The position numbers and the translations under genes are program-made. Below are positions 23,662-56,020 of a stretch of DNA of 64,000 nt, piece after piece. Position 1 is the stretch's first letter; every line of letters begins with the position of its first letter. The stretch is from a virus. The notes under the pieces were generated by a model. That model saw only the letters and a list, made by a program, of their open reading frames with translations. It had not been told where the DNA came from and searched no databases. Location: positions 1 through 64,000 of IMG/VR virus record IMGVR_UViG_3300017917_001342; one strand, given 5' to 3'.

Positions 23662-23689
23662 CATCCGATTGTATGATATTTATCGGATG
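23662..23689 (-). promoter_or_regulatory. Late promoter GATAAATA with 8-bp inverted repeat covering the ribosome site
   Basis: On the minus strand CATCCGAT, 12 nt, then ATCGGATG, immediately before AATC-ATG. The late box GATAAATA (23684-23677) overlaps the 5' arm. The 3' arm contains the GGA that would bind 16S rRNA. RNA started from this box would begin downstream of the 5' arm, leaving the ribosome site free. Confidence 0.6.
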
Positions 23690-24213
23690 GCTTTGACTAC
23701 CTCATCTTCTAGCCAAGCACGCTTTGCAAAAACAATGTTCTCGCTTAGTGCCAACTTAACGTGCAATAACGATTCGTCAGTTCGTAGATATAAACTGGTA
23801 CCACCGTAGGTGTGAAAATAATCTTGTTTATAAACACCTAGATTAGATTTGTACCAGTCTCTAATATCTAAATCGCCCTGTCGTACATATAGAGAGTATC
23901 TATACTTTTTGTAGTACAGTTGATCTCGTAATTCTAAAGTAAGACCTTGACGCAGTTGTTGTTCAGCAACTTCATTAAATGGTTTGCTGTAGTCTACTAC
24001 GCGATCACCAAAAATCTCAATTAGCTGATTGTAGCCAGATTCATTACAGTAAAATCTATCGTTTACCTGTTTCCTACTAAGACTGTGTGTGCGTTTTTTA
24101 TGAGACCCTGGCAAATTTTTCTTACACCATTCGACAGGATCACTGTCACCGTTTGCAGTGGCAATTTGAACCATGTGTGTGTATTTTTTATAGTAGAGTT
24201 CAGTAGTCCACAT
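23680..24213 (-). CDS. Two-module relative of the Trp-family small proteins
   Basis: The ATG at 24213 lies 2 bp after the HesB stop, so I prefer it to the longer frame. Two internal repeats are visible, ELYYKKYTHM...EWCKKNLPG and QLYYKKYRYS...DWYKSNLGV, each giving the helix-Trp-Asn pattern of the small-protein arrays. The C-terminal LLHVKLAL resembles their ending without the Trp. It may be a fused duplicate. Function unknown. Confidence 0.55.
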   Translation of the reverse strand: MWTTELYYKKYTHMVQIATANGDSDPVEWCKKNLPGSHKKRTHSLSRKQVNDRFYCNESGYNQLIEIFGDRVVDYSKPFNEVAEQQLRQGLTLELRDQLYYKKYRYSLYVRQGDLDIRDWYKSNLGVYKQDYFHTYGGTSLYLRTDESLLHVKLALSENIVFAKRAWLEDEVVKAIR

Positions 24214-24215
24214 GC

Positions 24216-24569
24216 TTAGTTCTTTAGATCTGTGGCTAACTGGAAGCTCTCGCCGCATCCACAGGTGTTGATTGCCAAAGGGTTTGACCATATTAATTGC
24301 GATTCAAATTCAGTTGTTTTTAGATCAAGTATGCTGCCGATAATGCTTAGAATACTTGCACCGTCTATTACTACTCGGCAACTATCCCAATTAACTACTT
24401 CGTCAAATTTACCGTATTGATCCCATTCGCAGAGATCGTAGGTATATTTGTGACCACTACAGCCTTTGTTGTTAACCCCAACACGCAGATGCTTGTTGGG
24501 ATTGTTTTTTAGTATTTCACTGATATACTGCTTGGCAGCAGGTGTAATTGTTATAAACTCTCGTGTCAC
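24216..24569 (-). CDS. HesB/IscA-type iron-sulfur cluster carrier
   Basis: This protein has 117 residues. It carries the three conserved cysteines of A-type carriers: Cys37 in NKGCSG and Cys103/Cys105 in CGCGESF at the C-terminus, with the ITPAAKQYISEIL opening typical of the family. Such proteins deliver Fe-S clusters to apo-enzymes. A radical SAM enzyme, which needs a 4Fe-4S cluster, is encoded 430 bp away on the other strand. The start is GTG, overlapping the previous stop (GTGA). Confidence 0.85.
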   Translation of the reverse strand: MTREFITITPAAKQYISEILKNNPNKHLRVGVNNKGCSGHKYTYDLCEWDQYGKFDEVVNWDSCRVVIDGASILSIIGSILDLKTTEFESQLIWSNPLAINTCGCGESFQLATDLKN

Positions 24570-24895
24570 TTATCAAATCCATCGCTAAGCATCATGAACA
24601 ACATCTTTTGTTCAATTGCTTCGTCGATGTTAGGCCACATTGACTTCAATTGATCAGCAGTGATTTCGACATACTGATTTTGAGCTTTTTTCTTTGCCAA
24701 CACATCCATTTGAATGCTGGGCTTCCAAGATGAATGTTTGTTGACACTGATAGTTTTGCCAACAATCGCCCAAAACGCAAATGCAACCTGTTGATAATTG
24801 CGCACATTGGTACCAGATGTTGGTACCATCCAACCCCAAATTTTATTACCGGGCTCGTAGTACATAACTTGTTTGATCTCGTAATTTGCGGTCAT
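24566..24895 (-). CDS. Hypothetical protein, possibly WGR-like, 109 aa
   Basis: I choose the ATG at 24895 over a TTG nine bases upstream. The pattern YEPGNKIWGWM...FWAIVGKTISV...ADQLKSMWP resembles the protein encoded at 36071-36364 (KLWGVLERV...FWCRRGAKMQF...LEQIYP). Both may be divergent WGR-type domains. No catalytic motif is seen. It begins the HesB operon. Confidence 0.5.
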   Translation of the reverse strand: MTANYEIKQVMYYEPGNKIWGWMVPTSGTNVRNYQQVAFAFWAIVGKTISVNKHSSWKPSIQMDVLAKKKAQNQYVEITADQLKSMWPNIDEAIEQKMLFMMLSDGFDK

Positions 24896-24916
24896 GGCAT
24901 CCAACTCAAATGTTGT

Positions 24917-24956
24917 TCATATGTCAGTAGTATATATGACTTTATCATTTTGTCTA
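24917..24956 (-). promoter_or_regulatory. Host-type promoter with 6-bp inverted repeat, HesB operon
   Basis: On the minus strand TAGACA (24956-24951), 16 bp, TATACT (24934-24929). TCATAT and ATATGA (24934-24939 and 24917-24922) flank the -10 with an 11-nt loop. Confidence 0.5.
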
Positions 24957-24964
24957 GGTATTAT

Positions 24965-24993
24965 TTGCAGATATTTTGCTGATCTGGCATAAT
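24965..24993 (+). promoter_or_regulatory. Putative promoter for the radical SAM gene
   Basis: On the plus strand TTGCAG (24965-24970), 17 bp, CATAAT (24988-24993). The -10 ends only 5 bp before the ATG at 24999 and no Shine-Dalgarno is present. If it is used, the mRNA would be nearly leaderless. Confidence 0.4.
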
Positions 24994-24998
24994 TTACT

Positions 24999-27113
24999 AT
25001 GAAAGAATTTGGAAAAGTCGACCATTCAGCTAGCACAACACGATTTGATTCTGACGACAGACATCAACGTATGTTGCAGGCAATAACACCGTGGGCTAAA
25101 AAGCTACCACAGAAAAATCTAACACCTGTTGAAGTAAAACCTGCAACACGTAAAACCAAGCTGCTCTTAATGTTGCTGCCAGAGTGGGCGCACAAGTTTC
25201 CGCCCTATAATCTAGCAAGACTTGGCAGTGTCACTAGAGCCGCTGGTTACGAAACTCATATCTGGGACATAAATGTAGCAGCGCGAAGAGATTTTATACA
25301 AAATGATTGGCCTAAAATAAACTACGATCCCTGGGATGGTATGAGAGACTGGCATTGGATGGCTCCGCAGTATTTTGACGATCTGCACGAGTATATGCAG
25401 CCATTGTTAGAAATGTATCTTAAAAAAATCTCAGAACTCAAACCCGATTTAATCGGGTTTACACTGTACTACTGTAATCAGGCTCCGACACTGTGGCTTG
25501 CTCAACAGATAAAACGTCGCTGGCCTCACATTAAAATTGCAGTGGGTGGGTCTGCAACACATCCGCAATATTATAAACCAGATCCGGAATATGATTATGT
25601 CATAAACGGCGAGGGCGAAAATCTACTACTGAAACTGTTAGAAGATATAGAGAACGGTGTAGAACACGTAACACCGTTGACTCTACGTCAACCAGAAAAC
25701 GAAAAGATGGATTTGGACAAATTACCTTTGCCAGACTACAGTTTTTTTGATTTTAATCAGTATGATATACCAAACGGTGTAAACAGTGAACTCAGTAGAG
25801 GCTGCACGGCTAAATGCACATTCTGTGAAGAAACACATTTCTATAGATATCGGCAACGTCAAGCGGGCAGTGTGCTAAAAGAAGTAACACATTTGTATGA
25901 TACCTACGGCATAGACACATTCTGGTTTATTGACAGCCTTGTTAACGGTAATCTAAACGAACTTCGTGCATTTTGCAAAGGTATAGTTGCAGCAGGTATG
26001 AATATACATTGGACTGGCTATGCAAGATGCGACGGTAGAATGGACTTAGACTATTACAAGGACCTTGCTGCCAGTGGATGTGTTGCACTAAACTATGGTT
26101 GTGAAAGTGGCAGTCAAGCAGTGCTCGATGCTATGGATAAACGTGTTAGCGTTGAGGAAATGGAAGCTAACTTTCGCAGCGGCAAACTAACTGGTGTCGA
26201 AGCATATACCAACTGGATAGTTGCATTTCCAACTGAAACACTAGTTGATTTTTCGCACACTATGACTATGCTGTGGAGAAATCGCAACAACAATATAACA
26301 GTTATCAGTCCAGGACAGGGATTTGGCGTAGGGCTTGACACGATTGTTGGACAAAACTTGCCCAAGTTTGGACTCAGTGACATTTACTACATGCGTCAAT
26401 GGATACGTAGCGATTTTACTATGGGTAAATTACATCGCATGATGCGTGTTAAAACCTTTAACATATTTTTAGACAATCTAGTAACAGAACAACCTATTGC
26501 TAAAAGCACTAGGCCCGAACTCAAAAAAACCTACACTATAGAATTTAACAATCCGCAGAGATTAAATGAAATCGAATATGAGTCGTTTGACTACAATATA
26601 ATAAGTGCAAATATAAATCCATTTGCTGATTCAGCGTTGAATGAAATTTGGCCGCTATTGCGCATGCTGTGGAGAACCCGCGGCGGCTATAAAACATATA
26701 TACGATTCAACAAAGACGAAGATTTCAAAGAGTTTGGTAGTAATACTGCATGCCCATTTGATGCAGAGTTTAATTTCGAAATTGACGACCACGGCAAATG
26801 GTCAGCAGATTTTTCATGGAATTTTGATCAGCCAGAAGATCCATGGATGATTGTTGACTATACTAGAGAAACAACCAATGCTAGTATACGTGCAAGACGT
26901 TTAGCCAGACCAGATCTTGCAGATCCAACCAATGCATTTAGTGAAGATGAATGGAACCAAAAAGTTCAGTTGAAACAGCAATATGAACAAATTGATTTGT
27001 CATTTTCACACACATGGTCCGGTCAAGGAAACTGGGGCAAAACTGCTCGTCTTACCCCAGATGAAAATGTCAGCTTGTTTACAGCTATGCTACGTAATAT
27101 TAAATCGCAGTAA
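24999..27113 (+). CDS. B12-binding-domain radical SAM enzyme
   Basis: This protein has 704 residues. Residues 50-240 form a cobalamin-binding-like Rossmann domain (LLPEWAHKFPPYNLARLGS, VGGSATHP, YVINGEGE). The radical SAM core follows with Cys269, Cys273 and Cys276 in GCTAKCTFC, which bind the 4Fe-4S cluster. A GCESGSQAVLDAMDK motif, common in this class, comes later. A C-terminal region of 250 residues is unassigned. Members methylate or rearrange varied substrates; the substrate here is unknown. It is the only plus-strand gene between 10.6 and 51.8 kb. Its 3' end overlaps the convergent Dps gene by 14 bp. Confidence 0.85.
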   Translation: MKEFGKVDHSASTTRFDSDDRHQRMLQAITPWAKKLPQKNLTPVEVKPATRKTKLLLMLLPEWAHKFPPYNLARLGSVTRAAGYETHIWDINVAARRDFIQNDWPKINYDPWDGMRDWHWMAPQYFDDLHEYMQPLLEMYLKKISELKPDLIGFTLYYCNQAPTLWLAQQIKRRWPHIKIAVGGSATHPQYYKPDPEYDYVINGEGENLLLKLLEDIENGVEHVTPLTLRQPENEKMDLDKLPLPDYSFFDFNQYDIPNGVNSELSRGCTAKCTFCEETHFYRYRQRQAGSVLKEVTHLYDTYGIDTFWFIDSLVNGNLNELRAFCKGIVAAGMNIHWTGYARCDGRMDLDYYKDLAASGCVALNYGCESGSQAVLDAMDKRVSVEEMEANFRSGKLTGVEAYTNWIVAFPTETLVDFSHTMTMLWRNRNNNITVISPGQGFGVGLDTIVGQNLPKFGLSDIYYMRQWIRSDFTMGKLHRMMRVKTFNIFLDNLVTEQPIAKSTRPELKKTYTIEFNNPQRLNEIEYESFDYNIISANINPFADSALNEIWPLLRMLWRTRGGYKTYIRFNKDEDFKEFGSNTACPFDAEFNFEIDDHGKWSADFSWNFDQPEDPWMIVDYTRETTNASIRARRLARPDLADPTNAFSEDEWNQKVQLKQQYEQIDLSFSHTWSGQGNWGKTARLTPDENVSLFTAMLRNIKSQ

Positions 27114-27558
27114 GTGCGCCGCCCACTGGATTGATAAGTGTTCTCAACTGCCAACGTGTCTTTGCATGCGAATCCAGTCGTTCTGCAATGTAGTTCATAA
27201 TAGCCTGATTGTCTGCAATCTCAGCAATTTCAAACAATTTGTTAAGGAACATTATCATACGTTCATGATCTTTTAACAGACGATCGATGTAGCCTTTTGC
27301 ATCCAATATGCCTTCTAAGTCATCTACTAAACTAAGAGACTTGTATTCTGCTAAGCTACCTGGTGCAAATGCATCTAGTTCGCGTATTTTTTCTGCAATA
27401 GTATCAACTTGATCAAATAGATCTTGATATTGCTCACCAAACATGCTGTGCAGTTGTGGAAAGAACATACCAGTTACGTTCCAATGTGCATTGTGTGTTT
27501 TGAGATACAATGCAAAATTTGTTGCTAAGAAAACTTTAAGTCCGTCTACAAGATCCAT
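27100..27558 (-). CDS. Dps-like ferritin (DNA protection during starvation)
   Basis: This protein has 152 residues. THNAHWNVTG and DTIAEKIRELD are the Dps signatures. His25, Asp52 and Glu56 have exactly the spacing of the ferroxidase residues His51, Asp78 and Glu82 of E. coli Dps. The shell would oxidise and store iron with peroxide and may bind DNA, although no Lys-rich N-terminal tail is present. It has a TATAAATA late box and CGGAG before the ATG. Confidence 0.9.
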   Translation of the reverse strand: MDLVDGLKVFLATNFALYLKTHNAHWNVTGMFFPQLHSMFGEQYQDLFDQVDTIAEKIRELDAFAPGSLAEYKSLSLVDDLEGILDAKGYIDRLLKDHERMIMFLNKLFEIAEIADNQAIMNYIAERLDSHAKTRWQLRTLINPVGGALTAI

Positions 27559-27570
27559 GATACAACTCCG

Positions 27571-27597
27571 CTGTGCTGATGATATTTATACACACAG
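27571..27597 (-). promoter_or_regulatory. Late promoter TATAAATA with short inverted repeat, Dps gene
   Basis: TATAAATA (27590-27583) lies between CTGTG and CACAG arms (27593-27597 and 27571-27575). The 3' arm ends next to the CGGAG ribosome site. The arms are only 5 bp. Confidence 0.6.
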
Positions 27598-27600
27598 TTA

Positions 27601-28419
27601 TTAATTTGATCCGCACTGTGTTTTTTTAGCTGTAGTCAATGTTTTGAAATTAGCTGGCCAAATCGTAGTTGATTTTTTATTTTTGTCAACAGTGTTTGGT
27701 ACAGGAAAAGTTATACCAGACAACTGTTCAATTTCACCGATGCTAACTGATACTGTGGATAAATCAGTACCTTGTCCTTCTCGTTGCGGAAACAAAAATG
27801 CCTGCGCCTGTTGCGTATTGTTGTCTATTATGATCTTATAGAGATAATCTGGTACAACTACAGAATTAGAACCTATAGTTTTACTTGTGCCAACGGTGTA
27901 AATGTTACCGGCATATACTGTATATGTGTGTTTAGTGGTCCACGCCCAGGTACGTTCTGTAGTTTCAAGTACTTTCCATATGCCTCTGTTGAGTCCTGGT
28001 AATTGCGGACTCATGTTGCTCAACAAAAAGCTTTCATACATTGCATCTTCATTGAATGCCATACTAGCAGCACTGGCAATATGCCCAATGTCATATCCAC
28101 TTTTAGCGTAGTCATCTAACTCTGATTGCTGCCAATCTGGTAAGCTACGGTCTTCTGCAAATGAATTGCTTCTTGGTATACAACCCACAGCACGATCCGG
28201 TGTTAATGTGTATGTTACCCAAATTGGAATTTTCGCAACAATGTCATATTCTAAAATGTATGCACTTCTACATATTAATGTATTACCAACTCGAGTACTT
28301 GGCATACCCCAAGGCGTTAGTGCAGCGCATTGTTCTACTGGTCGAGGTGAAGATTGATCCCATGCAAATGCATGCATAGGTGTAACCAACAGAAATATAG
28401 CGAGAATTTTTGATAACAT
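27601..28419 (-). CDS. Secreted DNA/RNA non-specific endonuclease (NUC1 family)
   Basis: This protein has 272 residues and a clear signal peptide (LSKILAIFLLVTPMHAFA, cleavage near residue 19). The active-site motif is DIGH (110-113), corresponding to DRGH with Arg replaced by Ile; His113 is retained. LSNMSPQ (133-139), the metal-ligand Asn144 and the following W-x-x-LE fit the beta-beta-alpha metal nuclease family. Export to the periplasm suggests digestion of incoming or released DNA, or lysis-related scavenging. The start is controlled by a hairpin and late box. Confidence 0.8.
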   Translation of the reverse strand: MLSKILAIFLLVTPMHAFAWDQSSPRPVEQCAALTPWGMPSTRVGNTLICRSAYILEYDIVAKIPIWVTYTLTPDRAVGCIPRSNSFAEDRSLPDWQQSELDDYAKSGYDIGHIASAASMAFNEDAMYESFLLSNMSPQLPGLNRGIWKVLETTERTWAWTTKHTYTVYAGNIYTVGTSKTIGSNSVVVPDYLYKIIIDNNTQQAQAFLFPQREGQGTDLSTVSVSIGEIEQLSGITFPVPNTVDKNKKSTTIWPANFKTLTTAKKTQCGSN

Positions 28420-28423
28420 TTAA

Positions 28424-28448
28424 TACTCCGTTTATCGGAGTACTTATC
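28424..28448 (-). promoter_or_regulatory. Late-type promoter GATAAGTA inside a hairpin that hides the ribosome site
   Basis: On the minus strand TACTCCG, ATAAA, CGGAGTA, then TTAA-ATG: a perfect 7-bp stem with a 5-nt loop. Its 3' arm is the Shine-Dalgarno CGGAG. GATAAGTA (28448-28441; 6 of 8 matches to the late consensus) overlaps the 5' arm. Transcription from it would begin in the loop and leave the ribosome site single-stranded. Confidence 0.6.
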
Positions 28449-28674
28449 ACGGAATATAGTGAGCGATCAGTTCCATACCCAAATGATTTGCAAGCCATTG
28501 TCCAGGTCTGTTTGACATGCGATTGAAAATCACTTTGGTATTGGCAATGATTAGAGTAATGGTTTTACCATCTTTGCTGGTTCTATCGAGAATAGCATCG
28601 ATGGTTTTGTTGGTGTTGCTGTTAGTAACTTTGACCTTGCGAGTATTGTAGTCTTTAGTACTAATATCGCCCAT
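28447..28674 (-). CDS. Small hypothetical protein, 75 aa
   Basis: This small basic protein (KDYNTRKVKVTNSNTNK) has a beta-like centre (GKTITLIIANTKVIFNRM) and a hydrophobic end. No family is recognised. AAGGGA lies about 8 bp before the ATG, and the gene follows its neighbour by 4 bp. Confidence 0.5.
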   Translation of the reverse strand: MGDISTKDYNTRKVKVTNSNTNKTIDAILDRTSKDGKTITLIIANTKVIFNRMSNRPGQWLANHLGMELIAHYIP

Positions 28675-28678
28675 TGAA

Positions 28679-28909
28679 TTATTCCCTTAGCAGTTTGAAC
28701 ATTACGGATTCAGTTGGTACTATCAATATATCTTTGGGATATCGTAGCACAGTGTATTCAAGTTTCCTAGATTTTAATGTGATCATTTTTGGATTTATTT
28801 TTTCAACTAGGAATATTCTTAACGAGTTACTTTCAAAAGACACTGCATATTGACCCAATGCAATTTCTTCACCAAATATATCTCGATGTGCAACAAGTTT
28901 TTTAGCCAT
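28679..28909 (-). CDS. Small hypothetical protein, 76 aa
   Basis: The sequence shows beta-strand periodicity (LGQYAVSFESNSLRIFLVEKI, LKSRKLEYTVLRY), suggesting a small barrel. No motif is recognised. It overlaps the end of the phosphomannomutase-like gene by 8 bp, which implies coupled translation. Confidence 0.5.
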   Translation of the reverse strand: MAKKLVAHRDIFGEEIALGQYAVSFESNSLRIFLVEKINPKMITLKSRKLEYTVLRYPKDILIVPTESVMFKLLRE

Positions 28910-29600: not shown

Positions 29601-29609
29601 TGTGAGCCT

Positions 29610-29840
29610 TTACACTAATATTAATCCAGCTACGTATACTGCAACCATACCAGCATTCAACACTACTAAACTGCGTTCTTTCCATAGTACACCTGTGATT
29701 GCCCATAGACTGTTAGCAATGATAAACGGTACATGATGCCAGTGCCAGTCTGGTACAAAGCTGGCTAATATTGCAGCAACTATCAGTCCTGCTGTAGCTA
29801 GCCAAGCTAGCCATTGGTATGGTTTAGTTTCAGTGTTCAT
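29610..29840 (-). CDS. Small membrane protein, 76 aa
   Basis: Three hydrophobic segments are visible: residues 9-28 (LAWLATAGLIVAAILASFV), 37-52 and 57-76 (LVVLNAGMVAVYVAGLILV). A short His/Trp-rich loop (DWHWHH) sits between the first two. This is an inner-membrane protein of unknown role. It overlaps its upstream neighbour by 11 bp. Confidence 0.6.
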   Translation of the reverse strand: MNTETKPYQWLAWLATAGLIVAAILASFVPDWHWHHVPFIIANSLWAITGVLWKERSLVVLNAGMVAVYVAGLILV

Positions 29841-41495: not shown

Positions 41496-41692
41496 TATTC
41501 TTCTCCGTAGATTTCGAAACCAAGCGTCCTGGCTTCATTACGTGCATCATAGTAGTTGTCGGAGTTCAGCAGTACCTTTTGATTATGAGGTACCGTGCAC
41601 CATCCTGTGGTATGCGGACGAACATGTGCTTTGCAATACACCCACTTGTCGGCACCAAAGTGCAGTTCGTCATCTGTTTGTCTATCACACAT
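41495..41692 (-). CDS. Small hypothetical protein, 65 aa
   Basis: The ATG at 41692 (MCDRQTDDELHFG) lies downstream of a good promoter; the longer frame would read through it. The product has Cys and His residues (YCKAHVRPHTTGWC) that could bind zinc. It overlaps the RNA ligase start (TAATG), so it is the first gene of that operon. Confidence 0.55.
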   Translation of the reverse strand: MCDRQTDDELHFGADKWVYCKAHVRPHTTGWCTVPHNQKVLLNSDNYYDARNEARTLGFEIYGEE

Positions 41693-41712
41693 GTCAGTGT
41701 CTCGCTGTTGTT

Positions 41713-41751
41713 CTACGCTTACACATATAGCATAAGCGTAGATATTGTCAA
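41713..41751 (-). promoter_or_regulatory. Host-type promoter with 8-bp inverted repeat around the -10
   Basis: TTGACA (41751-41746), 16 bp, TATATG (41729-41724). CTACGCTT and AAGCGTAG (41741-41734 and 41720-41713) enclose the -10 with a 13-nt loop. It heads the RNA ligase operon. Confidence 0.65.
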
Positions 41752-42896: not shown

Positions 42897-42942
42897 AACC
42901 AATGCAGTGTTCTATATTAACACACTGCACCTGGTTATTCAA
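42897..42942 (-). promoter_or_regulatory. Promoter with compound inverted repeat (8 + 5 bp)
   Basis: TTGAAT (42942-42937), 17 bp, TAATAT (42919-42914). TGCAGTGT and ACACTGCA (42929-42922 and 42910-42903) surround the -10 with an 11-nt loop. An outer AACCA/TGGTT pair extends the stem. Confidence 0.55.
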
Positions 42943-42947: not shown

Positions 42948-43301
42948 CTAGTCTCTGTTACGAACAAACGCAGTCATCGGAGTGCTGTAGCGAACATCAT
43001 TGTGAAGATCGCCGCCGTTAACACTGTCGCGCAGGTAATCCATTTCAGTATAGCCATAGCGATCAACACCATTGCCTGCACCGACATAATCACCGTCGAT
43101 GTCAAATGCACTGTAGCCGTAGCTGTCAAACCCTTCGCTGTCATAATCATCGAACATGGTTTTTTCATTGTATTCAACACCGGCATCTTTAACTGCTTTG
43201 CTCCATTCAACCGGAGTTTCGCCATAGCAGTTGAAACGGAACATGTCCCAGCCAGGAGTGTTTGCATGCGGGCAAAGCGGGCTGTATTTTCCAGTGCTCA
43301 T
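42948..43301 (-). CDS. Hypothetical acidic protein, 117 aa
   Basis: The ATG at 43301 is chosen because the longer frame crosses the promoter; AAGGA precedes it. The sequence has many Asp-Gly-Tyr repeats (FDDYDSEGFDSYGYSAFDIDGDYVG) that could bind calcium or be disordered. No family is recognised. Confidence 0.55.
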   Translation of the reverse strand: MSTGKYSPLCPHANTPGWDMFRFNCYGETPVEWSKAVKDAGVEYNEKTMFDDYDSEGFDSYGYSAFDIDGDYVGAGNGVDRYGYTEMDYLRDSVNGGDLHNDVRYSTPMTAFVRNRD

Positions 43302-43314: not shown

Positions 43315-43361
43315 GTGTTGTTTACAAGTGAAGATATAGCTGACAACACTGTGGCTGTCAA
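43315..43361 (-). promoter_or_regulatory. Host-type promoter, near-palindromic, with 7-bp inverted repeat
   Basis: TTGACA (43361-43356), 17 bp, TATATC (43338-43333). GTGTTGT and ACAACAC (43349-43343 and 43321-43315) enclose the -10, the latter next to AAGGA. The opposite strand reads CTGACA, 17 bp, TATATC over the same bases, so the element could fire both ways. Confidence 0.6.
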
Positions 43362-43391
43362 CTATATCTTTTTGATTATTGTGATTATTTT

Positions 43392-45045: not shown

Positions 45046-45091
45046 GTGCTAGTGTTGTGTTACATGTAGCACCGGTACTGTATAGTGTCAA
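45046..45091 (-). promoter_or_regulatory. Host-type promoter with 6-bp inverted repeat
   Basis: TTGACA (45091-45086), 17 bp, TACATG (45068-45063). GTGCTA and TAGCAC (45072-45067 and 45051-45046) bracket the start region with a 15-nt loop. The 3' arm ends beside AGAGGA. The -35 lies within the end of the GalE-like gene. Confidence 0.5.
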
Positions 45092-46728: not shown

Positions 46729-46772
46729 GAGTTTGATACTACAGTGTAATCAAACTCAGAGTCGAATATCAA
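46729..46772 (-). promoter_or_regulatory. 9-bp hairpin and possible promoter before the methyltransferase
   Basis: On the minus strand GAGTTTGAT, 11 nt, ATCAAACTC, directly followed by GGAG. A possible promoter, TTGATA (46772-46767), 18 bp, TACACT (46748-46743), puts the -10 in the loop, the arrangement seen before other genes here. Confidence 0.45.
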
Positions 46773-47698: not shown

Positions 47699-47956
47699 TT
47701 AGTCGTCATAGCCTTTGCTGAGACTACGCAGAACACGAGCTTGATCACGTTCTTCTGAATCCAATCGCATTTTAGCAATGCCAAAGGTTGAATAACCAAT
47801 ACCGCCGACGATCAGTGCAATCACTGCGACGATGCGGTAGATTTCAGGGAGTAGCGAAAGTACATAGACAAACCCTAGTCCAACAACACATACCATCACA
47901 AATGACAGATAGGTTTTTGCCCAAATAATCGCTAGCCGTTTAGTGCGTTGCTGCAT
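47699..47956 (-). CDS. Membrane protein, 85 aa
   Basis: The ATG at 47956 has GGAG six bases upstream and is preferred to one 12 bp earlier. Two membrane helices (TYLSFVMVCVVGLGFVYVL; IYRIVAVIALIVGGIGYS) precede a charged tail. It resembles the next protein in layout and may act with it. Confidence 0.6.
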   Translation of the reverse strand: MQQRTKRLAIIWAKTYLSFVMVCVVGLGFVYVLSLLPEIYRIVAVIALIVGGIGYSTFGIAKMRLDSEERDQARVLRSLSKGYDD

Positions 47957-48011
47957 GATCTGCTCCATATGTTGATTTATTATACAATAGCAGATCACGC
48001 AGCAAAGTCAA
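47957..48011 (-). promoter_or_regulatory. Host-type promoter with 8-bp inverted repeat reaching the start codon
   Basis: TTGACT (48011-48006), 16 bp, TATTGT (47989-47984). GATCTGCT and AGCAGATC (47996-47989 and 47964-47957) enclose the -10. The 3' arm fills the space between GGAG and the ATG at 47956. Confidence 0.65.
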
Positions 48012-49198: not shown

Positions 49199-49878
49199 TA
49201 TGCTTTCCTTCTAAATGCAGCGATGCCAAAATCTGTTGAGTCAGTACAGCATCTGATTTTTTCGTAGAGATTTTCGTCTACAGCTTCGAACAGTGCTGCA
49301 CAACCAGGATGACTGTTACTGTCGTGAAGTAATACCATACCGCCCGGTCTCAGCATGTCTGTGTATCGCCAATCATTTACACAGGTGTTAACGCTGTGCC
49401 AACCGTCAATAAACAGTAGATCTAATTGTGTAATACCTTTGTCAGACAAAAAATTTCGTATGCGTGTTTGATCATGGCTATTGCATTGCAGTGTCCATGT
49501 ATTGTTATCGGGATCATTGAGGTAGCTTTTATCATCAAGGTCAACACCGAGATAAAAAGATCCCTTGGGTCGTCCTTCCATTATGATTCTACTCATACTG
49601 CGTTCGTTACTGCGGTCTACACCAATTTCCATTGCAGCACGCAGAGACTCGCCAAAGTACAACATAACTTGTCTAACCGACTCTCTATTGCAATCAGATA
49701 TTTCTTGCTGCCCGGTCCATCCAAAAGGTGGTGCATCTTGATCATTGTTGACCTGAGGTTCAAGATCTGGAAAATACTTCAACCCTTGAATTGCAGTAGG
49801 TCTTGGTTTAATTAATTCTACAATTTTAGTATATGCGTCTAACACTGCAAACCTTTGTTTTAAAAATGGCAACACCAT
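49198..49878 (-). CDS. Class I SAM-dependent methyltransferase (CmcI/Methyltransf_24-like)
   Basis: This protein has 226 residues. LRAAMEIGVDRSNE is the SAM site. LDLLFIDGWHSVNTCVNDW and LRPGGMVLLHDSNSHPG match the class with an IDG-x-H metal/active-site block, seen in CmcI and sugar O-methyltransferases. The substrate is probably a glycan precursor. The start codon lies inside a 14-bp hairpin. Confidence 0.75.
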   Translation of the reverse strand: MVLPFLKQRFAVLDAYTKIVELIKPRPTAIQGLKYFPDLEPQVNNDQDAPPFGWTGQQEISDCNRESVRQVMLYFGESLRAAMEIGVDRSNERSMSRIIMEGRPKGSFYLGVDLDDKSYLNDPDNNTWTLQCNSHDQTRIRNFLSDKGITQLDLLFIDGWHSVNTCVNDWRYTDMLRPGGMVLLHDSNSHPGCAALFEAVDENLYEKIRCCTDSTDFGIAAFRRKA

Positions 49879-49919
49879 AGCCTAACTTTATATTATGCTA
49901 TGGTGTTGCCGATTGTCAA
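49868..49919 (-). promoter_or_regulatory. Promoter with 14-bp perfect inverted repeat containing the start codon
   Basis: GGCAACACCATAGC and its complement (49910-49897 and 49881-49868) flank a 15-nt loop. TTGACA (49919-49914) lies before the 5' arm and CATAAT (49897-49892) begins the loop, 16 bp apart. The ATG (49878-49876) is in the 3' arm. Confidence 0.65.
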
Positions 49920-50419: not shown

Positions 50420-50569
50420 GTTTTGGTCCCCCTTTCATGGGCCGTTTGTATCTATGCCATTACCATGGTCATACATCCTAAGGACTGTGGTTTCGCATTT
50501 GTACAAAAGATTTGCACAATGCATTGGTCGAGCAGTCCAAAGACTCGACGCAATGACGTTAATTGTGAA

Positions 50570-50577
50570 TATTTATC
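50570..50577 (-). promoter_or_regulatory. T4-type late box GATAAATA
   Basis: GATAAATA on the minus strand lies in the 173-bp non-coding stretch 50420-50592. A small interrupted stem (GTCG...AGTC-TTTG-GACT...CGAC, about 50530-50553) follows. The distance to the gene at 50419 is long, and no other gene is seen in the stretch beyond a weak 29-codon ORF. Confidence 0.45.
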
Positions 50578-50592
50578 TGCTGCTTTAACTGT

Positions 50593-50799
50593 CTATTCAG
50601 AAACAGCAGTCTCTGCGGCCAATGCTTTGCGAATCCAACGCATGAACAGCATGGCCTTGTCTTCAGGATTGAAGGTTGCATCCGCAGTATCATTCACAGG
50701 TACAGGGAACACGAATCCGTTTTCACAACGGTAATAGAGTTCACCCTTACGATAGAATTGAAATGTTACTCGGCCTTTGATGCAATCCTTGATATCCAT
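50593..50799 (-). CDS. Conserved small phage protein, 68 aa
   Basis: The ATG at 50799 is chosen because the longer frame would run into tRNA-Ser. The sequence MDIKDCIKGRVTFQFYRKGELYY, then FVFPVPVNDTADATF and AMLFMRWIRKAL, is a pattern common in phages, without known function. It probably lies in the tRNA transcription unit. Confidence 0.65.
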   Translation of the reverse strand: MDIKDCIKGRVTFQFYRKGELYYRCENGFVFPVPVNDTADATFNPEDKAMLFMRWIRKALAAETAVSE

Positions 50800-50822
50800 G
50801 ATATTGTTCTTTTCTAAAATTA

Positions 50823-50912
50823 TGGCGGAGGGTGTGGGATTCGAACCCACGAGGGGCTTTCACCCCTGACGGTTTAGTAGACCGCTGTTTTCGACCGCTC
50901 AACCAACCCTCC
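50823..50912 (-). tRNA. tRNA-Ser, anticodon ACU
   Basis: This is a 90-nt type II tRNA with encoded CCA. The acceptor is GGAGGGT/ACCCTCC with discriminator G. The D-arm is GTT/AAC. The anticodon stem is GCGGT/ACCGT with a CTACTAA loop. The long variable arm is GGGG-TGAAAG-CCCC, and the T-arm is GTGGG-TTCGAAT-CCCAC. U33 is followed by ACU, which reads the serine codon AGU. Bacterial Ser isoacceptors for this box normally carry GCU. The fibre genes use AGT very heavily for serine. Confidence 0.9.
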
Positions 50913-50914
50913 AT

Positions 50915-50950
50915 ACTGTTACTTATAGCAATAATTCACAGTGCTGTCAA
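50915..50950 (-). promoter_or_regulatory. Host-type promoter for tRNA-Ser
   Basis: TTGACA (50950-50945), 17 bp, TATAAG (50927-50922), ending 10 bp before the tRNA 5' end. ACTGT/ACAGT (50942-50938 and 50919-50915) flank the -10. It lies just after the sirtuin stop codon. Confidence 0.65.
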
Positions 50951-50953
50951 CTA

Positions 50954-51691
50954 TTAATCGTTCATCCAACTTGATACAACTAAATCAATTGCCGCAGCCT
51001 GTTCACTAGCCTTGCCCAAGAACACATGATCGAAATAGTCTTCGTTGATGTATTCGCTAGACTCTAAGTTATTGAGAATCTTCAGTGCTTTGCAATCAAA
51101 CAATAGACTATTCACATCAATAACTAGTCCACTAGTACCAACTACCACAATGCAGTCCTGTGGACGCAGTGCAGAAATAGTGTGATACATTACGCTGTAC
51201 AATGGTGCAGCTTCGTGAAAGAACACAATCTTAGGCCTGGTACCTTTGATGCTTTGACACTTACCATCTCTACCAGGACAACGATCAGTTTCACCTACTG
51301 CATCATAGCCAACTGACCATACATGACCGCAGGCATCGCAACGCATCTTAGTGAGTTCACCGTGTAGATGATGTACAGTTTTACAACCAGCACGTTCCAG
51401 TAGATCATCAACATTCTGTGTGAGAATCACTGTGTTGTAACTCTGTTCCCATTTAGCAATTTGTGTGTGCATTGCATTGGGTTTAACTGACGCAAGACCC
51501 TGCCTACGTGCATTATAAAATGTACGTACAAGATCCCAGTTCTTTTTCCAAGTGCGACCGTCTGCTACCTGTGTAACATCATAGCCTTCCCAGAGTCCAG
51601 TTGAACCACGAAAGGTAGCAATGCCACTGTCAGCACTGAGACCTGCTCCGCTTAGCACAACCAATGATGGTTTTCTGGGATCTGTTGTCAT
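50954..51691 (-). CDS. Sirtuin (Sir2/CobB-like NAD-dependent deacylase)
   Basis: This protein has 245 residues. The NAD-binding GAGLSADSGIATFRG (15-29), TQNVDDLLERAG (91-102), catalytic His110 in LHGEL, zinc ligands Cys118, Cys121, Cys138 and Cys145, and VGTSGLVI (184-191) are all present. It should be an active deacylase. The bacterial-type GAGxS and 245-residue length fit CobB. It may remove acyl marks from host proteins during infection. It lies between the two tRNA genes. Confidence 0.9.
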   Translation of the reverse strand: MTTDPRKPSLVVLSGAGLSADSGIATFRGSTGLWEGYDVTQVADGRTWKKNWDLVRTFYNARRQGLASVKPNAMHTQIAKWEQSYNTVILTQNVDDLLERAGCKTVHHLHGELTKMRCDACGHVWSVGYDAVGETDRCPGRDGKCQSIKGTRPKIVFFHEAAPLYSVMYHTISALRPQDCIVVVGTSGLVIDVNSLLFDCKALKILNNLESSEYINEDYFDHVFLGKASEQAAAIDLVVSSWMND

Positions 51692-51707
51692 AACGATTCT
51701 CTAATAA

Positions 51708-51784
51708 TGGCGGCCACGGTAGGACTCGAACCCACAACCTTCTCCTTAGGACGGAGCAGCTCTATCCAGTTGAGCTACGTAGCC
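51708..51784 (-). tRNA. tRNA-Arg, anticodon CCU
   Basis: This tRNA has 77 nt with encoded CCA. The acceptor is GGCTACG/CGTGGCC (one G-U pair), the D-arm GCTC/GAGC, and the anticodon loop GTCCTAA with CCU, reading AGG. The T-arm is GTGGG/CCTAC with TTCGAGT. G at position 32 and a mismatch at the top of the anticodon stem (27-43) are unusual but do not disrupt the fold. Confidence 0.9.
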
Positions 51785-51795
51785 ATTTGTATTTT

Positions 51796-51831
51796 AATTT
51801 AGCATAGACTGATGTGTACTGTCAAGTACAC
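51796..51831 (-). promoter_or_regulatory. Host-type promoter for tRNA-Arg and sirtuin, with hairpin at the -35
   Basis: TTGACA (51825-51820), 18 bp, TAAATT (51801-51796). A 7-bp inverted repeat GTGTACT/AGTACAC with a 4-nt loop (51814-51831) overlaps the -35. The region is divergent to the amidoligase gene. Confidence 0.45.
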
Positions 51832-51844
51832 TGTGCAATTTGCC

Positions 51845-51852
51845 AATAAATA
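51845..51852 (+). promoter_or_regulatory. Plus-strand late box AATAAATA
   Basis: AATAAATA lies 24 bp before the ATG at 51876 of the plus-strand amidoligase gene. CAAGG precedes that ATG. Confidence 0.5.
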
Positions 51853-51875
51853 TCACATAATCGTCAAGGTATGCT

Positions 51876-53402
51876 ATGAAAATCAACGAAGTCAAAACCA
51901 CATTAAACACTCTGCGAGCCATTACAGCAGGTAGCAGTGCCAGAGTAGGTATAGAATTTGAATTGGTTATTAATAACGAAACTGGCGATTTTAGCGTATA
52001 TCCAGAACCAGATTATGAAGAAGATCAATATGTTGAATCTTCTAACTGGGAATCAATGTGTGACGACATTACGAATTTCTTTCAAGGCGAATACAACACT
52101 CGCAGTGAAATAAAAAGTGTACTAGACAATGCTAGAGAACCATTTGATGAATGGGTATTACAACAGTGGTTAGACTTAGTTAAAGATGAATTTGATGACT
52201 GGAAAAAAAAGAAATATCCAGATGACGATGATGTAGACGAAGATACATTCTACAACGAAGAATACGATGACTGGTACGACGAAGGCAAACTACTAAAACA
52301 ATACTTAGAAGAAAATGGCCTTGACCAGATGAGCGGCTGGCAAAGTCTCGAATGGCCTTATTACGCAGATCCAGAAATTCCAGTTGATGTTGATCATGTT
52401 GCTGCATCATTTCGTCGTGCTACTGGTATGCGAGCAAGTCTACAAGGTGGTTCAAACGAATACAAAATAGAATCTGACAGCAGTATTAAACCAACCAATA
52501 GCGATGATGCTGGCTTGGAATTTATCAGCCCGCCGCTCAGCATAAACCAAATGATAGACCAACTGCATAAAGTCAAAGCCTGGGCACTAGAAGGCAATGC
52601 CTACACTAATAAAAGCTGTGGGTTGCATATTAACATAAGTGTGCCTGGTTACAACATGGCAGATTTAGATTATATTAAATTAGCATTGTTTTCCGGCGAC
52701 AACTACATACTCGATACATTTGGTCGTACGGCTAATGATTATACTAGCCCTGCAATGGAACTGATAAAACGCAGAATAAAAAACAGTACTGCTAACGTAC
52801 CGCTGGCATTAGATATGCTGGCAGTTAACTTGTTGAAAAAAGCCAGCCAGACTATACACAACGGCTACGTTAACAAATATACCAGTATCAATCCCAAAGA
52901 AGACTATGTGGAATTTCGTGCAGCGGGCGGCGATTGGCTAAACATGGATCTTGACAAGGTGATAGAAACCATGCTGCGTTATGTTGTTGCATTGCAGATA
53001 GCACTTGATCCCAATGCGTATAAACGAGAATATGCAGCAAAACTCTACAAGGTGCTAAGTCCGAACAAACAGGATGATGCTGTTGCGCTGTTTGCTATGT
53101 GGAAAGCTGACAACATAGATTCGGCAGATCTCAAATCACAGTGGGCAAGAAAAATATTGTTTGCCGATCCTGAAAAAACGTTCTCACCAGAAAAAGAACG
53201 ACTAGCTGCAAACATACTCGCTAAAGAAAACCTATGGTTGATACGCGATGGCAGAACTGGTTCAATTCAACGACAGATTCGTGCTGCTACCAAAGCAGAT
53301 GCAGAAAAGAAATACCAGGAATGGTTAGATCTGTTCAGCAATCCTAGCAAGCCATACTATCTACAGAGCATTGCAGATTATCGCCGCACAAAAGTCACTT
53401 AA
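51876..53402 (+). CDS. Amidoligase-like protein (putative amidoligase/ATP-grasp-related family)
   Basis: This protein has 508 residues. RVGIEFEL (Glu27, Glu29), LEFISPPL (214-221), SCGLHINIS (247-255) and YVEFRAAGG (near 350) follow the order of conserved blocks in the predicted amidoligase family related to glutamine synthetase. Between the first two lies a long acidic insert (residues 40-160). Such enzymes are predicted to join amines to carboxylates, perhaps on peptides or cell wall. It is the only plus-strand gene here and has a late box. Confidence 0.7.
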   Translation: MKINEVKTTLNTLRAITAGSSARVGIEFELVINNETGDFSVYPEPDYEEDQYVESSNWESMCDDITNFFQGEYNTRSEIKSVLDNAREPFDEWVLQQWLDLVKDEFDDWKKKKYPDDDDVDEDTFYNEEYDDWYDEGKLLKQYLEENGLDQMSGWQSLEWPYYADPEIPVDVDHVAASFRRATGMRASLQGGSNEYKIESDSSIKPTNSDDAGLEFISPPLSINQMIDQLHKVKAWALEGNAYTNKSCGLHINISVPGYNMADLDYIKLALFSGDNYILDTFGRTANDYTSPAMELIKRRIKNSTANVPLALDMLAVNLLKKASQTIHNGYVNKYTSINPKEDYVEFRAAGGDWLNMDLDKVIETMLRYVVALQIALDPNAYKREYAAKLYKVLSPNKQDDAVALFAMWKADNIDSADLKSQWARKILFADPEKTFSPEKERLAANILAKENLWLIRDGRTGSIQRQIRAATKADAEKKYQEWLDLFSNPSKPYYLQSIADYRRTKVT

Positions 53403-53580
53403 CCAGTGATTCGATCCAGGCAGCAAATCTCTCTTGACGTAGTTCTTTTATTTGACTTTCTGTCATAGACACATATTCAATTGGACTTAGCGTAACAGAG
53501 TCTCGATGTGTGACGCTGTTATGTGCAAAATCAAAATACACAGTCCACCAACCGTCTGGACGTTGTGTTGCACCTAACAT
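53395..53580 (-). CDS. Small hypothetical protein, 61 aa
   Basis: The protein begins MLGATQRPDGWWTVYFDF and ends in a charged helix (TESQIKELRQERFAAWIESL). No family is recognised. It converges on the amidoligase gene with an 8-bp overlap. A hairpin and late box precede it, so it is probably a late product. Confidence 0.55.
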   Translation of the reverse strand: MLGATQRPDGWWTVYFDFAHNSVTHRDSVTLSPIEYVSMTESQIKELRQERFAAWIESLVK

Positions 53581-53582
53581 CT

Positions 53583-53621
53583 ACTGAGCTCCAATTAACT
53601 GTATATTTATTGAAGCTCAGT
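53583..53621 (-). promoter_or_regulatory. Late promoter AATAAATA in the loop of an 8-bp inverted repeat
   Basis: ACTGAGCT (53621-53614), late box AATAAATA (53611-53604), and AGCTCAGT (53590-53583), which overlaps the GGAG ribosome site and stops 2 bp before the ATG. RNA begun from the box lacks the 5' arm. Confidence 0.65.
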
Positions 53622-54087
53622 GACGATTTGCGTAGATGATTTCCACAAAGCCTTCATCGTGTGTGGGTTCTTCAAGCTGGCTCTTCATACCCATCACAAT
53701 GTTTGCAGGAATAGTCTTGCCAGGACGATTTGCAAGACGACGATTCAGTTCAGTGTCATCCGGAGTAGTAAAGTACACCGCAACAACGTCGTAGTGTTCA
53801 GGCACAATGGCCAGTTTCTTTTTGCGAGTTTTTGCAGTGATATTGGTTTGATCCCAGATCACAGTGCGATCAGCGGCAAACGCATCAGCAGCGTCTTTGT
53901 ACATCTGCTTTTCAGCAGCAGCAATTTCTGCTTTGAACACATCGTTGTAGGTCTTACCCTGCGCAGCCGCAGCAGCTTCGATCTTGTCGTCAGTGCTAAG
54001 AACCGTTTCGCGATCAAGACCCATGAACTTGAGCCACGTGCTTTTGCCGCTACCCGGAACGCCAATCAACATATACAGTTTCGGCAT
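53617..54087 (-). CDS. Polynucleotide 5'-kinase (P-loop kinase, Pnk-like without phosphatase)
   Basis: This protein has 156 residues. P-loop GVPGSGKST (9-17), STDD (31-34) with the likely general-base Asp, WDQTN (78-82) and the lid RRLANRPGKTIP match the kinase half of T4 Pnkp. The T4 enzyme's C-terminal phosphatase half is missing. It phosphorylates RNA or DNA 5'-OH ends, and with the ligase at 40.3 kb it would heal broken RNA. A strong promoter lies upstream. Confidence 0.85.
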   Translation of the reverse strand: MPKLYMLIGVPGSGKSTWLKFMGLDRETVLSTDDKIEAAAAAQGKTYNDVFKAEIAAAEKQMYKDAADAFAADRTVIWDQTNITAKTRKKKLAIVPEHYDVVAVYFTTPDDTELNRRLANRPGKTIPANIVMGMKSQLEEPTHDEGFVEIIYANRH

Positions 54088-54103
54088 AGTGTATCTCCTT
54101 TGT

Positions 54104-54138
54104 TGCTAGTGTTATAGCAGATTATGTTTCAGTGTCAA
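54104..54138 (-). promoter_or_regulatory. Strong host-type promoter TTGACA-N16-TATAAC
   Basis: The -35 is at 54138-54133 and the -10 at 54116-54111. A short inverted repeat TGCTA/TAGCA (54119-54115 and 54108-54104) brackets the -10. AAAGGAG then precedes the ATG of the kinase gene. Confidence 0.7.
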
Positions 54139-54328
54139 GACCCATTGGTCCCTGCATGAATTTTAAAAATCTCAAGTTGCCGTCAAGTTCTTCTTCGCTG
54201 ATGCCGCAACTCCATGCATGCAAACAGTTGGGACTATTGGTTTTACAGATAGGGCATTCCCATCCATAACTGTGTTTGAATTCATATAGTACCAAACACT
54301 TTTCACAAACCGGCGGGCCCAGTCCCAT
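54122..54328 (-). CDS. Small zinc-binding protein, 68 aa
   Basis: CEKC (residues 8-11) and CPIC (25-28), with later Cys and His residues, predict a zinc ribbon. The end, ISEEELDGNLRFLKFMQG, parallels the protein at 54303-54566 (LSDQQLESNLIFLAAIKG), so the two adjacent genes look like a tandem duplication. Confidence 0.6.
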   Translation of the reverse strand: MGLGPPVCEKCLVLYEFKHSYGWECPICKTNSPNCLHAWSCGISEEELDGNLRFLKFMQGPMGLDTET

Positions 54329-54566
54329 CTAATTTAATTCCTTTTATTGCAGCTAGAAATATCAAATTGCTTTCTAACTGCTGATCCGATAATCCACTTT
54401 CCTCAATGTCAAATTGCGGGTCACCGTTGCCGCAGATTGGACAGTTGATATAAACACCCCCGTCGTCGAAGTATAAATTGCAGACTACGGAGCAATGTTC
54501 ACACACTGCTCCGCTAGGTCTTAGATATTCGCCCCTGATGTAATTATTGAGTTGCAACCATTGCAC
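54303..54566 (-). CDS. Small zinc-binding protein, paralogue of its neighbour (start uncertain)
   Basis: CEHC and CPIC pairs and the C-terminal helix match the adjacent 68-residue protein. There is no in-frame ATG before the first Cys pair. Candidate starts are GTG at 54566 or TTG at 54557, both inside the ClpP gene and without a clear ribosome site. The frame clearly codes, but the N-terminus is unresolved. Confidence 0.5.
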   Translation of the reverse strand: MQWLQLNNYIRGEYLRPSGAVCEHCSVVCNLYFDDGGVYINCPICGNGDPQFDIEESGLSDQQLESNLIFLAAIKGIKLDGTGPAGL

Positions 54567-55152
54567 GCTTGTCAATGACTTTATCAGCAAGACCGTAGGC
54601 AACAGATTCGCTGGCAGTTAGGAATGTGTCGCGGTCCATGTCTTTTTCAAACTGTTCGTAGGTTTTGCCTGCGCTGTTGTGATCAACATAGATCTGCGTA
54701 AGTTCAACTTTCATACGTTCGATCTCCCTGTAGGTGATTGCAATGTCGCTGACCATACCCTGTGCGCCACCGCTTGGCTGATGAATCATGTGACGAGCAT
54801 GTTTCATAATATAACGATGACCAGGCTCACCTGCCTGTGCTAGTAGAGAACCCATACTAGCAGCTTGACCCATTACAAATGTGTGTACAGGACTCTTGAT
54901 AAACTGCATGGTATCATAGATGCTCATACCCGCAGTAACCGATCCACCTGGGCTGTTGATGTAAAAGTTAATCGGCGCCTTGGCATTTTCACTTTCGAGC
55001 AGCAGCAATTGCGCAACAATCAAACTGGCACTGTGATTATTAACATCAGTGTCCATAATGATAATACGGTCTTTGAGCAAACGGCTATAGATATCATAGC
55101 TGCGTTCGCCACTGGCACTTTTTTCTACTACAATAGGCACTAGATTAGGCAT
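54544..55152 (-). CDS. ClpP-like serine protease
   Basis: This protein has 202 residues. YINSPGG (64-70), GQAASMGSLL with catalytic Ser99, MIHQPSGG with His124 and DRDTFLTASESVAYGL with Asp175 reproduce the ClpP active site and handle region. It should form a barrel protease. In phages such proteins may serve prohead maturation or interact with host Clp ATPases. No ClpX or ClpA partner is seen here. Confidence 0.9.
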   Translation of the reverse strand: MPNLVPIVVEKSASGERSYDIYSRLLKDRIIIMDTDVNNHSASLIVAQLLLLESENAKAPINFYINSPGGSVTAGMSIYDTMQFIKSPVHTFVMGQAASMGSLLAQAGEPGHRYIMKHARHMIHQPSGGAQGMVSDIAITYREIERMKVELTQIYVDHNSAGKTYEQFEKDMDRDTFLTASESVAYGLADKVIDKRAMVATQ

Positions 55153-55175
55153 AGATTTTCCTTTGTTTATTTTTC

Positions 55176-55208
55176 AGTATAAATGCCGCCGACAGTTTTG
55201 TCAGCGGC
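55176..55208 (-). promoter_or_regulatory. ClpP promoter and GC-rich hairpin (possible terminator of the preceding gene)
   Basis: CTGACA (55204-55199), 17 bp, TATACT (55181-55176). The -35 and spacer lie within a GC-rich hairpin, GCCGC-GACA/TGTC-GCGGC with one mismatch (55185-55208). The hairpin contains the stop codon of the small upstream gene. A weak T-rich stretch follows, so it may also end transcription. Confidence 0.5.
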
Positions 55209-55365
55209 AAATTTGATTAATTTCGTCTGCGCTGCGATCAGACATAGCATAGCTGGCAAGACACTTGGATTGTTTTTCAGCTTTGGCATACTCGCTAACA
55301 GCAAGGCTACTAAACATTGCTATAATTGAAATAGCAGTTGCTATCATAAACCATTTAAATTCCAT
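55201..55365 (-). CDS. Small exported or membrane-anchored protein, 54 aa
   Basis: The N-terminus EFKWFMIATAISIIAMFSSL is a membrane anchor or signal sequence. A short polar domain with two Cys (KCLASYAM, NQICR) follows and would lie in the periplasm. The start is close behind the previous gene. Function unknown. Confidence 0.6.
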   Translation of the reverse strand: MEFKWFMIATAISIIAMFSSLAVSEYAKAEKQSKCLASYAMSDRSADEINQICR

Positions 55366-55366
55366 C

Positions 55367-55738
55367 TTAACGTCCTTTCAAACTTTCAACATAGCGATGA
55401 ACAAAATCGCAGAGGCTGTCGAATTCACTATAGACTTCGTTCAGGCCGCCACTGTGACCACGACTGTAGGCTTCGCCCCAAATCACACCGAATTCACTAT
55501 CGCAGAGTCCGTAATCTGCTTTGAGACGATCTTCAAATTCGCTCAGACGTTTACCAGCAGCAGTGCTGGCCGCTGCGCGAGCAGCTTCGTATTCTTTGAA
55601 TGCAACTTCGTAGGCTTCCAGTGCATCTGCATAAGCCCGTGCTTCGGCAGCCGTTGCACCATGTGCGATGCGCGGCTTTGTGGGTTTGGTAGGGTACACA
55701 ATGTCACGAGCATTGTAGTAGTTGAAATCGTAGCTCAT
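55367..55738 (-). CDS. Hypothetical helical protein, 123 aa
   Basis: The protein begins SYDFNYYNARDIVYPTKP. It then forms long Ala-rich helices (EARAYADALEAYEVAFKEYEAARAAA) and ends VYSEFDSLCDFVHRYVESLKG. This is reminiscent of small phage helical proteins, but no family is assigned. It lies 10 bp after its upstream neighbour. Confidence 0.55.
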   Translation of the reverse strand: MSYDFNYYNARDIVYPTKPTKPRIAHGATAAEARAYADALEAYEVAFKEYEAARAAASTAAGKRLSEFEDRLKADYGLCDSEFGVIWGEAYSRGHSGGLNEVYSEFDSLCDFVHRYVESLKGR

Positions 55739-55748
55739 TGTAGTCTCC

Positions 55749-55967
55749 TTATTCGCTCAGCGCAAACTGCATAAACAGCGGAGCAAGTTCGTGTTGCAGA
55801 GGTTTGCGAACACCGTAGGCAATGCAGCCAAAGCGAGTGTCCATGTCAATCTCATCTTTACCAACAGTATAGAACTTACCGTTGATACATTCAAGCACAG
55901 TTCCTTCGGGAATCTGTTGGTATTCATCAGGTGTAAACAACCACAGTTCTTCATCCCAACGCTGCAT
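55749..55967 (-). CDS. Conserved small phage protein, 72 aa
   Basis: The pattern ELWLFTPDEYQQIPEGTVLECINGK...GKDEIDMDTRFGCIAYGV is common among phage hypotheticals. It suggests a small beta domain. AGGAG lies before the ATG, and a promoter with an inverted repeat precedes it. Confidence 0.65.
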   Translation of the reverse strand: MQRWDEELWLFTPDEYQQIPEGTVLECINGKFYTVGKDEIDMDTRFGCIAYGVRKPLQHELAPLFMQFALSE

Positions 55968-55977
55968 AGCTTTCTCC

Positions 55978-56020
55978 TATGTTGTTACTTGCACAATACA
56001 ACATACTATGCGATTGTCAA
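55978..56020 (-). promoter_or_regulatory. Host-type promoter with 8-bp inverted repeat around the -10
   Basis: TTGACA (56020-56015), 16 bp, TATTGT (55998-55993). TATGTTGT and ACAACATA (56005-55998 and 55985-55978) enclose the -10 with a 12-nt loop. The 3' arm runs into GGAG. Confidence 0.7.

Follow-up and report, generated by a model that had tools for sequence, protein, structure and literature searches.

Inverted repeats at early promoters of a T4-like giant phage: putative composite promoter/hairpin elements

The window analysed here, bases 1-64000 of the 518,643-bp virus record IMGVR_UViG_3300017917_001342, carries inverted repeats that enclose promoter elements ahead of genes. A preliminary description had placed such repeats at more than a dozen gene starts, twelve of them listed as stronger cases, around the -10 hexamer or a late box, and had suggested that the hairpins they encode make translation depend on which promoter made the message. 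I find that the repeats are real and that, at sigma70-type promoters, they occur far above chance: an inverted repeat surrounds about one quarter of the early promoters that can be recognised, and a small number of late ones.

The giant phage is T4-like. T4-type proteins encoded in the window include a Dda-like helicase, an RNA ligase and tail fibre proteins, and a late sigma factor is encoded elsewhere in the record (phrog_12791, E 6e-84); late boxes of the form NATAAATA are therefore expected. The phage collection contains no close relative, and two anchors used to find relatives, P0001 and P0006, gave no yield. Relatives in IMG/VR have RNA ligases 68-81% identical to that of the window and include one short collinear contig (L022/L047/L052).

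Results

All twelve repeats are present, on the minus strand, some with stem lengths other than those first given (10 bp for the gene starting at 41692, 9 bp for those at 47956 and 43301). At 49868..49910 a 14-bp stem (GGCAACACCATAGC/GCTATGGTGTTGCC) closes a 15-nucleotide (nt) loop containing the -10 hexamer TAATAT (49895-49890), with TTGACA at 49919-49914. Directly after the stem comes ATTTTTAA, so the site is also terminator-like and has the look of a fused terminator and promoter. The gene start first given, 49878, is probably wrong, the likely start being GTG 49845; the collinear L022 keeps AAAGG..GTG, and its 3' arm contains no ATG. The 3' arm of the 14-bp repeat therefore probably does not cover the start.

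The other early sites differ in how far the 3' arm reaches. At 47948..48005 a stem of 17 positions with one G.U (9 bp perfect) has its 5' arm between -35 and -10, and the Shine-Dalgarno sequence, ATG 47956 and codons 2-3 all lie under its 3' arm. The 9-bp stem at 46729..46757 surrounds the -10 TACACT, is extended by a T.G wobble and CTC/GAG, and abuts with its 3' arm the GGAG ahead of a gene for an FkbM-type methyltransferase (start 46718), while at 55978..56005 an 8-bp stem with a 12-nt loop around TATTGT ends 11 nt ahead of ATG 55967, beside GGAG. The Shine-Dalgarno sequence is free at 41712..41742 (10-bp stem, 11-nt loop TGCTATATGTG with an extended -10, TTGACA upstream, start 41692) and at 42903..42929 (8-bp stem, 11-nt loop with TAATAT, start 42879). 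At 43331..43370 (start 43301) the 9-bp perfect stem grows inward to 15 positions with one wobble, its 5' arm containing TTGACA and its 3' arm TATATC. Two 6-bp stems, at 45046..45072 (start 45032) and 24917..24939 (start 24895), had been counted among the stronger examples; they are at chance level, because several equally good pairs occur in the same 170 nt. A further hairpin (TGCCGCTGACA/TGTCGGCGGCA) at 55184-55209 on the minus strand overlaps the -35 (CTGACA), fills the spacer before TATACT and is followed by TTTAT; phage RB49 has similar spacer hairpins at 43008, 33312 and 25315.

Three repeats lie at late-type boxes. An 8-bp stem at 53583..53621 surrounds the late box AATAAATA (53611-53604), and its 3' arm ends 3 nt ahead of ATG 53580. 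Another 8-bp stem, at 23662..23689, overlaps the late box GATAAATA (23684-23677), with its 3' arm 5-12 nt before ATG 23657, the start of a gene for a 934-aa protein with a weak Hc2 match. At 28424..28442, upstream of an Endonuclease_NS gene (start 28419), a 7-bp stem with a 5-nt loop accompanies GATAAACG, which is a partial late box and not the full one first reported.

Enrichment was measured in a 324-kb sample of the same genome, made up of a 244-kb first set including the window and 80 kb held out (four 20-kb stretches). A sigma70-like promoter was defined as TTGACA matched at 5/6 positions or more, a spacer of 15-19 and TAnnnn, ahead of a called gene start. Stems straddling the -10 were compared with those in dinucleotide shuffles of each flank with the -10 kept, a control that preserves dinucleotides and not any spacer constraint. 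For the main counts the stem centre had to lie within -6..+11 of the -10; this range was picked from the first set, and was therefore tested on the four fresh stretches.

The excess is large and grows with stem length. Perfect stems centred on the -10 reach at least 7 bp at 12 of 46 promoters (1.4 expected), at least 8 bp at 8 (0.38 expected) and at least 10 bp at 5 (0.02 expected). The held-out 80 kb gave at least 7 bp at 5 of 16 promoters against 0.62, and at least 10 bp at 2 against 0.00. In the first set, stems of at least 8 bp straddle the -10 at 8 of 29 promoters, with 0.62 expected and a maximum of 3 in 40 shuffles; at intragenic hexamers the same set gave 3/134 against 1.4, or 2/134 against 0.93 with the centre restricted. 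The preliminary description's own chance estimate, a few percent of regions, was of the right order, and the shuffled controls bear out the excess that it had predicted for early promoters. Stems of at least 7 bp are also in excess in near relatives (6/65 promoters, 1.5 expected), at loci around one orthologous gene (20/96, 2.4 expected) and in a far set whose sequences are not mutually independent (21/168, 7.4 expected); an E. coli control offered few qualifying promoters and was uninformative. Across the 244 kb, stems of at least 8 bp are over-represented at loops of 3-12 and 15 nt, and in the window, where about one fifth of the sequence is intergenic, 15 of the 34 such stems that have loops of 8-26 nt fall between genes.

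In the own, near and far sets alike, repeat centres are most frequent at -5..+10 relative to the -10 hexamer. Measured from the -10, the hairpin centre scatters with a standard deviation of 5.6 nt, and from the ATG with one of 11.2 nt; the hairpin keeps its register with the -10, not with the start codon. As had been described, the loop contains the -10, and the predicted transcript start falls after the 5' arm. A second peak of centres near -40 from the -10 fits terminators or stems around the -35. Two stems with TTGAC in an arm, L132 16429-16474 and L134 19604-19635, belong to this second class of repeats, perhaps terminators fused with the -35.

Late boxes were considered as the main class and rejected, the excess being weak: stems of at least 8 bp occur at 3 of 25 in the own genome (0.5 expected, P about 0.02) and at 6 of 127 over all loci (3.6 expected), where the excess is confined to at least 10 bp. 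Only a few genes thus belong to the late class, which is also the case in T4. At 23657, 53580 and L011 7825 a hairpin covers the ribosome-binding site and has the late box inside its 5' arm or next to it.

Pairing is kept in relatives even though the letters change, and in one family the arms are wholly different yet complementary. At 53580, L047 has its late box in the same place and arms GTAGAAT/ATTCTAC where the window has ACTGAGCT/AGCTCAGT, and both pair; at the 49895 site L022 has retained 13 bp, two of the pairs being compensated; and in L024 the 47956 stem persists over 11 bp, the start codon among them. The family is the orthologous promoter of a far-set gene (MSNDLA...), which was not found in the own genome and is represented by 53 distinct upstream regions. 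Among these, 21 have a homologous promoter with flanks alike, while their arms fall into several unrelated families and are nearly all palindromic around the -10. In a MAFFT alignment of the full set of orthologous promoters the arm families were shifted against one another, and an ungapped subset (A4, twelve promoters) was used. There the covariation of the named stem is 0.506 against 0.253 when shuffled (0/500), eight pairs have changed on both sides, and versions of the stem slid along the sequence score 0.06-0.21. When arms were swapped between orthologous promoters, 6.76 of 10 positions paired against 8.55 for a promoter's own arms, a test weakened because several orthologues share arms. 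The expected covariation thus appears in this family and at 53580 and 49895, but not at every site of the window, as is weighed below.

Some observations concern the surroundings. In L024, upstream of 5811, an open reading frame resembling a GIY-YIG-type endonuclease, a possible homing element, seems to split the RNA ligase gene. In the window, 24999-27113 on the plus strand encodes a 704-aa protein, oriented opposite to its neighbours, with a CxxxCxxC motif (CTAKCTFC) and a weak match to a PHROG of unknown function; it is possibly a radical-SAM enzyme. The coding fraction as called is low in L133 (G000:C1:124001-144000; 0.46) and L005 (G000:C1:150001-170000; 0.63), perhaps owing to tRNA or other non-coding regions.

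Discussion

Which molecule carries the structure? G.U pairs well in message-strand RNA, and the opposite strand would favour A.C. Read on the message strand, the mismatches flanked by pairs in 182 distinct stems at the -10 are 16 G.U, 1 A.C and 11 others, where composition would predict about 0.87 G.U per A.C. Selection has therefore most likely acted on a structure in RNA running across the promoter, which must then have started upstream; this points away from a DNA operator. Palindromic sites for dimeric repressors would lie in the classical position for repression, over the -10, and a few arms do share GCRTAGA-like ends. However, the arms are unrelated across sites and orthologues while the pairing is kept, there is no common half-site, and G.U mismatches on one strand are unexpected for DNA, so I disfavour operators as very improbable. 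The symmetry centred on the -10, with the hexamer in the loop, would also suit a cruciform or a single-strand hairpin promoter that aids melting or marks the promoter, yet the same strand-asymmetric G.U bias speaks against structure at the DNA level, loops of up to 24 nt extrude poorly, and I regard this as the most improbable of the explanations. As read-through requires, the upstream gene is co-directional at 51 of 52 palindromic promoters.

What, then, would the hairpin do to the message? For stems of at least 8 bp over all loci, the median distance from the end of the 3' arm to the ATG is 12 nt; it is 12 nt or less in 50% and 20 nt or less in 79%, and 3% of the arms reach the ATG. That most 3' arms cover or abut the Shine-Dalgarno sequence or the ATG is accordingly true of about half. 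Folding predictions for positions -16..+6 of the start give a median rise in opening cost, from local to read-through RNA, of 9.5 kcal/mol at palindromic promoters with stems of at least 8 bp and of 1.8 kcal/mol at promoters without a stem (P 2e-6). Among the window sites, 46718, 47956 (19 kcal/mol), 53580 (17), 23657 (10) and 28419 show a large predicted rise and 55967 and 45032 a moderate one; there is little or none at 41692, 42879, 43301 and 49845, where the ribosome-binding site is predicted about equally open in both RNAs. At 23657 and 53580 the ribosome-binding site is predicted closed in read-through RNA and open in local RNA. From the opening costs in the window, a translational switch is therefore plausible for about half of the sites. 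The proposal that translation is set by the origin of the message agrees with the median rise and fails to account for the four sites without change.

The stems might instead act on transcription, as PeSLs (promoter-early stem-loops) may. These are reportedly found in RB49, phi1 and other T4-like phages and, going by papers that cite their description, are said to be promoter-terminator composites that promote recombination. On this explanation the hairpin mainly stops incoming transcription, the embedded promoter restarts it, and translation would not be what is controlled. T is indeed more frequent in the 8 nt that follow the 3' arm than in controls (2.95 against 1.67), with at least 5 T in 21% of stems of at least 8 bp against 4% of controls and clear T-tracts at 49895 (ATTTTTAA) and L134 7067 (TTTTTTGT); moreover RB49, the source of PeSLs, has the same promoters. 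Against it, 79% of stems of at least 8 bp are without a T-tract, the mean stem GC fraction is 0.36, the loops are often long, and ordinary RB49 terminators have UUCG-type loops and T-tracts and are placed upstream of the -35. As a general account I consider termination rather unlikely. The idea of a single design for early and late promoters is not supported, since hairpins follow the -10 and not the ATG and about one fifth carry a terminator-like T-tract. A further RNA-level explanation is a processing or stability element, cut in its AU-rich loop or shielding the 3' ends of upstream messages; it suits the AU-rich loops and the RNA-level signature but leaves the exact placement on the promoter without explanation, and seems to me improbable.

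Similar arrangements are known. In T4 e, soc, 49, I-TevI/II/III and segB and in Aeh1 mobE, the late box lies in the 5' part of a hairpin, so that read-through RNA hides the ribosome-binding site and local late RNA is without the 5' arm (PMC3014915, PMC2988022). For e and I-TevI this mechanism is established. The late cases here match this group; the preliminary description had called T4 gene e a related arrangement. Those are single late genes, whereas here sigma70 early promoters are also involved, many per genome, and the arm often ends before the Shine-Dalgarno sequence. In seg43 of Aeromonas phage 25 a very stable predicted hairpin lies just upstream of the ribosome-binding site (PMC2988022), upstream of and not over it, like cases here, although this is a single homing-endonuclease case with a putative effect.

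Early promoters of known phages share the arrangement too: upstream of T4 dmd lies GACAAGACTA tggtatag TAGTCTTGTC and upstream of motB GGGACCA gagtataa TGGTCCC. Stems of at least 7 bp occur at 3 of 21 T4 promoters (0.95 expected, a weaker excess) and of at least 10 bp at two (0.04 expected), and in RB49 of at least 7 bp at 6 of 19 (0.54 expected; for example TTGACAtgcaaaGGGAGTATgctataATACTCCC). The early cases resemble PeSLs, which, as the citing papers present them, likewise join a sigma70-type early promoter to a stem-loop; the RB49 promoters have the same -10-in-loop build. Seen as terminators in that sense, PeSLs differ from most stems here, where a T-tract is present in 21%. With these early promoters at hand and PeSLs reportedly already described, the design is not new in the way first claimed. 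Arms that differ between otherwise similar orthologous promoters would fit PeSL-like exchange between phages.

I therefore think it reasonably probable that these are composite promoter/hairpin elements that insulate the next gene from read-through RNA. The 5' arm would fill the spacer left free between -35 and -10, with the -10 or the late box in the loop, and the local transcript would begin with the 3' arm. RNA made from this promoter would lack the 5' arm and stay open, while RNA arriving from upstream would fold the hairpin; the next gene would be insulated mostly through a closed or crowded ribosome-binding site, in about half of cases, and in a minority through termination. The trick, known in single T4 genes, would here be in wide use.

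Several observations weigh against this interpretation. The 3' arm ends short of the Shine-Dalgarno sequence in about half of cases, and such a stem is missing from the majority of sigma70-like promoters and of late boxes. The stem is absent in relatives at 23657 (L050), 43301 (L025) and 46718 (L049), and the L050 orthologue of the gene at 28419 has no late box, the 6-bp stem that covers its start being unrelated. The G.U count amounts to only 17 mismatches, with control regions tilting alike (10:4, 3:2, 10:3), and the upstream gene is co-directional at 218 of 234 other promoters as well, a difference that is not significant. Finally, the promoters are consensus matches and the genes come from a home-made caller, both computed rather than mapped as transcripts.

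More tentatively, and with the odds against it, -10-in-loop hairpins across T4-like phages may be a general system that ties early expression to local initiation, each tandem early gene following its own promoter and not its neighbours' read-through. If the insulating role is true, densely packed tandem phage genes would be kept under their own promoters by RNA folding and not by terminators alone, and the T4 late-gene trick would be an instance of a wider rule, one that extends to early sigma70 promoters. The covariation supplies definite base pairs for testing this, and the rule would account for the many short early genes that have their own promoter inside co-directional runs.

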